64,000 nt of DNA from Chloroflexota bacterium (GTDB lineage Bacteria; Chloroflexota; UBA6077; FW602-bin22; CADDYW01). Numbering within the stretch: position 1 is the first letter of the stretch; each line of letters begins with the position of its first letter. The translations under genes were made by a program, and so were the position numbers. Below, in pieces: positions 40,336 through 42,020 of the stretch. The notes under the pieces are model-generated. The model searched no databases. It worked only from the letters and a program-made list of their open reading frames with translations, and was not told where the DNA came from. The stretch is taken from the NCBI GenBank assembly GCA_019690095.1, contig JADGGD010000001.1:1-64000 (forward strand), read 5' to 3'.

Positions 40336-41073
40336 ATGACCGGACGACCATATACGCGGCGACTCAATGATCTGGAGGAACGATTTGCCGCTCTCGCCCC
40401 GGATATTCCCGAGGGACCGTCAAAGGAGGCTCTCTCGCTTCTGCACGGGATGATCCAGGAGCTCTGGCGGGCGCTCCGTCCCGGCGCGGCCGAGTCGACG
40501 AATCAGCTGACACTCGATGACATTGCCAATCTGTACAAGACGGCGCCTCGGATGGAAGGGATCGCCGAGAACCAGCCTCTACCAGTGGGAACCCCGGCGC
40601 CCGATTTCACCCTGCCCGATGCCAATGGTCAGCCAGTGTCGCTCCGAGATTTCCGCGGCTCGCCGGTCGTCCTCGTCTTCTATCCCCTGGACTGGAGCCC
40701 AACCTGTAGTGATCAGCTGAGCCTTTACCAGGCGGAGATCGACGAGTTCGCGCGATATGGGGCGCGCATCCTGGCTGTTTCGGTGGACAGCATTTACAGC
40801 CATGGTGCGTGGGCGGCCGTGAGAGGCCTGACTTTCCCACTGCTCTCGGATTTCGAGCCCAAAGGAGAGGTGGCGCGGCTCTATCGGGTCTGGCGCCAGC
40901 GTGATGGATTCTCCGAGCGCGCCCTTTACATTATTGATCCCGATGGGATCATCCGCTACGCCCACGTCTCGCCCCGGCTTGATCAGGTACCGGATATCTA
41001 CGAACTGTACCGCGCCCTGGAGGGGATCGCGCGGCCCGAACGGGCGGCTGCCGCGGGCGTGGCTGGAGGGTGA
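40336..41073 (+). CDS. Peroxiredoxin (AhpC/TSA) with N-terminal helical extension
   Basis: A 245-residue protein. Residues ~1-80 are a charged helical extension with no family I recognise. The peroxiredoxin domain (~84-235) starts VGTPAPDFTLPDANGQPVSL; the peroxidatic Cys124 is in PLDWSPTCSDQ, and the Arg of the active site is in the later EVARLYRVWRQ region. No clear resolving Cys is visible, so it may rely on the glutaredoxins encoded just downstream. GGGAGG precedes the ATG. It is the first gene of a probable thiol-redox operon. Confidence 0.87.
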   Translation: MTGRPYTRRLNDLEERFAALAPDIPEGPSKEALSLLHGMIQELWRALRPGAAESTNQLTLDDIANLYKTAPRMEGIAENQPLPVGTPAPDFTLPDANGQPVSLRDFRGSPVVLVFYPLDWSPTCSDQLSLYQAEIDEFARYGARILAVSVDSIYSHGAWAAVRGLTFPLLSDFEPKGEVARLYRVWRQRDGFSERALYIIDPDGIIRYAHVSPRLDQVPDIYELYRALEGIARPERAAAAGVAGG

Positions 41074-41077
41074 AGCC

Positions 41078-41383
41078 GTGTCGCTCTTTCGGACCGGTCG
41101 ATATGCCCCCTACGGGGTCCGCAGTGCACCGGTGATCGCCCCGGTCACGGTCTATGGGACATCCTGGTGCGCTGCGACCCAGCTGATTCGACGGTACCTG
41201 GATCGAGCCGGCATTCCCTACCGGTACGTGGATCTGGAGAGCAATCCTGAGGCCGCGGCCCGTCTCCGCTGGCTGACCGGTGGCTACGTCAGCCATCCGA
41301 CTGTGAGTGTCGCGGGTGAGATCCTGGTTGAGCCGAGCCTCGGTGAGCTGGACTGGGCGTTGAGTCGCGCGGGCTTGATCTAA
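41078..41383 (+). CDS. Glutaredoxin-like protein (single active-site Cys)
   Basis: A 101-residue glutaredoxin/mycoredoxin-like protein. The active site is YGTSWCAATQ with only Cys31; the second Cys position is Thr. The cis-Pro loop is SHPTVSVAGEIL. The GTG at 41078 follows the peroxiredoxin stop by 4 bases with GGAGGG upstream, so the two are translationally linked. A monothiol redoxin of this kind could reduce the peroxiredoxin via a low-molecular thiol. Confidence 0.83.
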   Translation: MSLFRTGRYAPYGVRSAPVIAPVTVYGTSWCAATQLIRRYLDRAGIPYRYVDLESNPEAAARLRWLTGGYVSHPTVSVAGEILVEPSLGELDWALSRAGLI

Positions 41384-41510: not shown

Positions 41511-42020
41511 ATGGGTGCTCTTGAGGGGTCGGTTACCGTCTACAGCACGCCGACCTGACCATGGTGCACGCGTGCGAAGGAGTTCCTTCGCCAGCACGGC
41601 ATCCCCTTTCAGGAGAGGGATGTCTCGCGTGATCCATCCGCGGCCCAGGAGCTGGTGCGCCGCAGTGGGCAGATGGGCGTGCCGGTCATCGTGGCGGGGG
41701 ACGAGGTCATCATCGGATTCGATCGATCCCGCCTTGCTCGCCTGGTAGAGCGCATGCGGGGACAGATTTCCCGTCCGCGCCTCGGCGCCCTGGTGAAGGA
41801 GATGCCGGGGAAAGGCCTTCTGGTCGGGGGAGTGCGGGAGGGGTCTCCCGCAGCGCAGGCTGGCCTGCGCCCGGGCGATCTGATCGTGACGGTGGATCGT
41901 GTGCCGGTTCGGACGATCCCTGATCTCCAGCACATGATCGGGGAGCGGCGTCCAGGGGAATCGGCACGTCTCGAGATTTACCGGGATGGTCAGCCGCTCA
42001 TACTGCAGCTCGCGTTTTAG
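41511..42020 (+). CDS. Candidate selenocysteine glutaredoxin-PDZ fusion (in-frame TGA at 41556-41558)
   Basis: Read through one TGA this is a 169-residue protein. Residues 1-80 are a glutaredoxin (YSTPT-U-PWCTRAKEF, later SGQMGVPVIVAGDEVIIGFD). The TGA takes exactly the place of the first Cys of the usual CPxC active site, giving U16-P-W-C19. Residues ~88-169 are a PDZ domain (GGVREGSPAAQAGLRPGDLI). The frame is intact on both sides, the ATG has AGAGGAAG upstream, and a 7-bp hairpin lies 22 bases after the TGA. Alternatives are a nonsense mutation or a sequence error; the exact Cys replacement and hairpin favour selenocysteine. A fragment starting after the TGA would lack the redox site. Confidence 0.7.
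41571..41598 (+). promoter_or_regulatory. SECIS-like hairpin after the in-frame TGA
   Basis: GCGAAGG (41574-41580), apical loop AGTT (41581-41584) and CCTTCGC (41585-41591) form a perfect 7-bp stem. An alternative keeps GAAGG/CCTTC and adds a lower stem CGTGC (41571-41575) with GCACG (41594-41598) below a GCCA bulge. The loop starts 22 bases after the TGA and has G in its first two bases, as in bacterial SECIS elements. Confidence 0.6.

Follow-up and report, generated by a model that had tools for sequence, protein, structure and literature searches.

Does an in-frame TGA mark a broken gene, a genuine terminator or a selenocysteine (Sec) codon, and, if the last, what kind of protein carries the Sec? 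The question is raised by a frame at 41,511-42,020 (+ strand) of the window, the 64,000-nucleotide stretch of Chloroflexota DNA analyzed here. The frame starts at an ATG preceded by the purine-rich stretch GAGAGGAAG, ends at a TAG, and comprises 169 amino acids when the UGA at codon 16 is read through. Its translation, MGALEGSVTVYSTPT*PWCTRAKEFL...LILQLAF*, confirmed the original observation of one TGA (41,556-41,558, + strand) inside an otherwise intact frame, at the first position of a UPWC active site, where the predicted residue is U16 of STPT-U-PWC. On the comparative data below, the gene probably encodes a selenoprotein in which a Sec redoxin of the YruB/Cp9 type is joined to a PDZ domain (probability roughly 0.88), and decoding of the UGA as Sec appears close to certain.

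Exchange of selenocysteine and cysteine among homologues

A read-through search of 400 Chloroflexota genomes recovered, by count of rows, 31 glutaredoxin (Grx)-PDZ fusions with exactly one TGA and eight with Cys. Both in an initial set of 30 fusions and in those retrieved later, U or C always occupies one shared column, and TGA or Cys stands there in all active-site-keeping fusions examined. The alignment thus agrees with the prediction that homologues would have Cys or Sec at exactly the TGA column, and the window gene displays the defining pattern of a selenoprotein, an in-frame UGA where homologues have Cys. Because in other Chloroflexota the column holds TGA or Cys and never another stop, the window TGA is no chance event. 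Within the window's own order the gene is present in 12 of 13 genomes, 11 times with TGA and once with Cys. The tree needs about eight Sec/Cys changes, at least three of them forced by strongly supported branches, from which it follows that the two residues have been swapped repeatedly.

These data refute the readings of the gene as a pseudogene or as the product of a sequencing or assembly error that turned TGC or TGT into TGA. The source assembly is a fragmented metagenome-assembled genome (MAG; 3.8 Mb, 403 contigs, 5.3% contamination), and one base change would be enough, but 31 single-TGA fusions from many genera and families retain an intact frame elsewhere, the TGA falls at the active-site codon in every fusion examined, and the hairpin pairing described below is kept in all of them. 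Neither frameshifts nor decay, which had been named in advance as evidence against the proposal, were found in the homologues, and decay or error is left with a negligible probability. Equally negligible is insertion of tryptophan, or of some other standard amino acid, at the UGA through a variant code or a suppressor. That would fit the read-through frame taken alone, but the column alternates solely with Cys, never with Trp, in active-site-keeping fusions; a set of tRNA-Sec, SelA, SelB and SelD is present; and a hairpin beside the UGA would be out of place under a reassigned code.

Some members of the wider survey depart from this pattern. In genome G287 the Grx-PDZ gene seems to occur twice (C2:828503, C3:255365): one copy has TGA, and the matched stretch of the other contains a TAG. 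Four distant fusions (L171:3170-3748, L172:6390-6953, L173:6257-6892 and L174:6911-7525 (-)) have NDPQS or GDPAS in place of UPWC and no catalytic Cys, and seemingly form a redox-dead branch. A large gene lies just ahead of each, and encodes an SF1-type helicase (AAA_11/AAA_12) in L171 and L172, the two scanned. A Bacillota candidate, L120, was rejected as a fusion, being a lone Grx followed by a thioredoxin reductase (TrxR)-like gene.

A SECIS hairpin downstream of the UGA

A bacterial SECIS element is a hairpin located near and 3' of the UGA, with a G in a small apical loop (PMC1088965). The window gene has such a structure at 41,574-41,591 (+ strand), GCGAAGG-AGUU-CCUUCGC, beginning 15 nt past the UGA, with 7-bp arms at 41,574-41,580 and 41,585-41,591 and the AGUU loop at 41,581-41,584, of which 41,582-41,583 is the conserved GU. 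All UGA genes examined have an equivalent hairpin at equal spacing, its register varying between two positions that differ by a single base (e.g. GUGAAAGGGUUCCUUUCAC), and stem substitutions are seen on both strands across these genes.

The hairpin was scored over seven stem pairs against synonymous-codon shuffles in 31 UGA genes and 25 Cys genes; Cys relatives from a contig scan using a Cys active-site pattern served as controls. The UGA genes average 6.81 stem pairs vs 4.92 after shuffling, with six or seven of seven in each gene, and their mean folding-energy z is -1.56 (-0.01 for the Cys genes). The Cys homologues have no hairpin signal by the same shuffles (4.12 pairs vs 4.20, 0/25 significant), and GU at loop positions 24-25 is found in 31/31 UGA genes vs 9/25 Cys genes. 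Individually, 22 of the 31 UGA genes reach p<=0.05 and the window gene alone is borderline (p 0.047); since the UGA genes are related, these individual tests are not independent, and the strength lies in the whole set. In two Cys genes, L137 and L143, the 5' arm and loop are retained while the 3' arm is gone, as expected from relaxation of the SECIS signal. On these comparative grounds the hairpin is assigned as a bacterial SECIS element.

The hairpin also bears on whether the UGA is a real stop, with a 15-residue peptide made upstream, a PDZ protein started internally and the glutaredoxin half unused. An internal GTG (e.g. at 41,655) would indeed give a 121-aa ORF, and some termination and re-initiation at low selenium would be ordinary. 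This arrangement is nonetheless very improbable in view of the Sec/Cys exchange at the active site, the glutaredoxin domain, which is intact before and after the UGA, and the SECIS hairpin itself. For genes of the Sec redoxin plus PDZ type, the UGA is the point at which standard gene finders truncate.

Selenocysteine machinery of the source genome

The proposal called for selA, selB, selC and selD in the genome, and all four were found above their curated cut-offs: tRNA-Sec (selC) at 69.6 bits, selB at 357, selA at 564 and selD at 370. They lie on contigs other than that of the Grx-PDZ gene, and selD is split over contigs C35 and C400. The selD product is a selenoprotein too (GAGUACKLG), and a formate-dehydrogenase-alpha homologue (C147:4680-7433) has one in-frame TGA (NQARIUHSST) with a hairpin of loop GGUCU downstream. 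The genome also encodes a TrxR above cut-off (409 bits); contig C147 carries both a thioredoxin reductase and the TGA-bearing formate-dehydrogenase-alpha homologue.

Among fusion genomes checked, a SelB-like match is present in 30/30, exceeding the cut-off in 27/30, and a tRNA-Sec match above cut-off is present in 26/30, Cys-form genomes among them. The four genomes missing an over-cut-off tRNA-Sec and the three missing such a SelB are perhaps accounted for by incompleteness. As tRNA-Sec is retained in genomes with the Cys form, loss of Sec from the Grx-PDZ gene needs no loss of the Sec trait. Together, the Sec machinery, the Sec/Cys column and the SECIS hairpin in 31/31 UGA genes strongly support the earlier call that this UGA specifies Sec.

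Redoxin and PDZ domains

The N-terminal domain (residues 8-67; 41,532-41,711, + strand) matches Pfam Glutaredoxin (E 5e-22) and is YruB/Cp9-like; its cis-Pro motif is VPV (residues 57-59), and GFD lies just past the domain, at residues 69-71. Profile scores, computed with C substituted for U, place the window protein above the cut-off of the YruB family (TIGR02196; 93.6 vs 88.55 bits) and below those of glutathione (GSH)-dependent glutaredoxin 3 (TIGR02181; 57 vs 90 bits) and NrdH redoxin (TIGR02194; 52.3 vs 85.75 bits). Relatives L026 and L049 also pass the YruB cut-off, and the Cys relative L055 falls just below it, at 83.1. The window protein passes the Uxx-star subfamily model (NF041212; 71.7 vs 66 bits) and is below cut-off for UXX-star families 1 and 2; NF041212 does not define the Grx-PDZ family, since L049 and L055 are below its cut-off. 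No NCBIfam model spanning the whole fusion was found in the profile search of the window protein and its relatives. The label "glutaredoxin" originally given to the domain therefore holds for the Pfam fold, and needs amending in that the YruB cut-off was passed and that of GSH-dependent glutaredoxin 3 was not; the enzyme has more in common with redoxins of the YruB/Cp9/NrdH type than with glutaredoxins that depend on glutathione.

A GG motif is typical of GSH binding. In the window protein GFD stands where the GG would be typical, and a GRX_bact match, though present, is below cut-off while YruB is above it. These features argue against the view that Sec is correct but the protein is a (de)glutathionylating, GSH-dependent glutaredoxin or a metal handler to which the PDZ domain is a structural add-on. 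The matches to Pfam Glutaredoxin and GRX_bact lend this view some weight, as does passage of the Uxx_star cut-off, metal-binding roles having been suggested for UXX-star proteins in a review (PMC13188914). Also against it, the resolving Cys is retained, vs the UxxT of UXX-star family 1. About one chance in four may be allowed to this GSH or metal-handling alternative, and a Sec redoxin of the YruB/Cp9 type is preferred.

A full PDZ domain after the glutaredoxin domain had also been predicted, and is present by Pfam at residues ~94-163 (41,790-41,999, + strand; PDZ_2 at 94-163, E 8e-14; PDZ_6 at 105-158, E 1e-13), the PF13180 and PF17820 scores of 52.2 and 51.1 exceeding a gathering threshold of 27 bits. 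The prediction is refined in two respects: the domain belongs to the Deg/HtrA type found in bacteria, and about residues 80-93 form the linker. A conserved LG loop (residues 91-92) lies immediately N-terminal to the PDZ domain. In the predicted structure both domains are well formed (mean pLDDT 90.6), with an uncertain placement relative to each other (pTM 0.52), and by Foldseek the PDZ half resembles the PDZ domains of DegS, DegQ and HtrA in the PDB.

Relation to known selenoproteins

Sec glutaredoxins are on record from the Sargasso Sea survey onward (PMC1088965). Those with UxxC, such as the Clostridium oremlandii Grx (PMC13188914, PMC1088965), share with the window protein the Grx fold, Sec first in the active site, a resolving Cys and a bacterial SECIS within the coding region; the passages of those sources that deal with them describe them as glutaredoxins and leave a PDZ domain unmentioned, whereas the window domain is YruB/Cp9-like. 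The YruB/Cp9 redoxins (TIGR02196; BC3987, Cp9; PMC3720550) resemble the window domain in their CP[YW]C center, conserved Pro and Gly-Phe, but are Cys-only, single-domain proteins of 75-80 aa, without the Sec and PDZ of the window protein. A Trx7/PDZ selenoprotein (NF041199) is listed in reviews (PMC13188914, PMC9312934) and likewise joins a thioredoxin-fold domain to a PDZ with Sec; it differs in having a CxxU motif, where the window motif is UPWC, a Thioredoxin_7 domain and a 390-position profile, which the window protein matches at 37.6 bits, over its PDZ part only, vs a cut-off of 300. Finally, the Uxx-star (seleno)proteins (NF041212, NF041114, NF041211) have a Sec Grx-like domain as in the window protein, but their profiles span 70-71 positions without a PDZ, and family 1, as UxxT, lacks the resolving Cys.

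Papers on Dehalogenimonas genomes name SelD and formate dehydrogenase as selenoproteins, and neither a glutaredoxin nor a PDZ protein. The suggestion that the fusion is undescribed is consistent with the open-access papers searched, none of which was found to describe a Grx-PDZ fusion with Sec. By all comparisons made here, Grx-PDZ qualifies as an authentic selenoprotein family with a new domain architecture, its kind being already known.

Gene neighborhood

The window gene lies in the order Hsp20, AhpC/TSA peroxiredoxin, single-Cys glutaredoxin-like, Sec Grx-PDZ, FtsH. The peroxiredoxin gene (40,342-41,073, + strand) is the upstream neighbor whose product is a candidate electron acceptor. The small glutaredoxin-like gene between it and the Sec gene (41,141-41,383, + strand; start approximate) has a single active-site Cys (TSWCAAT) and is near mycoredoxin, yet below its cut-off. 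No conserved operon was found among 40 relatives, which gave only scattered matches to the window's neighbors; because the neighbors are not conserved across the family, context lends little support to any given substrate. In some genomes stress genes recur next to it, namely DnaJ (twice), GrpE, rubrerythrin, superoxide reductase or rubredoxin, these being raw counts. In another Chloroflexota genome (L158:2001-3788) rubrerythrin, superoxide reductase, Sec Grx-PDZ and rubredoxin form a single run.

In clostridia, Cp9/YruB redoxins sit between TrxR and peroxiredoxin genes, and peroxiredoxins are reduced by Cp9-type thioredoxins (PMC3720550). Relatives outside the Chloroflexota (L110, L120) show a lone Cys redoxin followed by a TrxR/AhpF-like flavoprotein gene.

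Proposed mechanism and implications

In the pathway we propose, SelB would attach to the hairpin that starts 15 nt past the UGA and deliver Sec-tRNA(Sec), so that the ribosome would read U16 and make the full 169-residue Grx-PDZ protein. Sec16 of U-P-W-C would then attack a substrate disulfide or sulfenic acid, and Cys19 would resolve the adduct to give a selenenylsulfide, reduced most likely by thioredoxin reductase; electrons would pass from TrxR to the Sec redoxin and on to a disulfide or peroxiredoxin substrate. Such a TrxR/peroxiredoxin-type function is tentative, with somewhat less than an even chance, the reductant, substrates and physiology all being putative.

Tethered by a flexible linker, the PDZ domain would be expected to grip a partner's C-terminus and, by holding it, to select the substrate, the likeliest partners being oxidant-defense or quality-control proteins such as the adjacent peroxiredoxin. 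Aiming of the enzyme at protein C-termini, as first suggested, is a reasonable but putative role; targeting of specific clients is doubtful, the ligand itself being conjectural. That a phylum-wide family uses PDZ domains to present a Sec redoxin to client C-termini, whether of peroxiredoxins or of chaperone and protease substrates, is similarly speculative.

If this were true, the protein would be a targeted selenium-dependent disulfide reductase linking redox repair with protein quality control. The idea that a PDZ domain directs a redoxin can be put to the test. A Sec redoxin joined to a PDZ domain adds to the selenoprotein architectures one that is common and long-lived in a single phylum, with the cultured, organohalide-respiring Dehalogenimonas probably among its carriers. 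Because Sec and Cys have been exchanged repeatedly, with coupled gain or loss of the hairpin, the family offers a good natural experiment on the benefit of selenocysteine.
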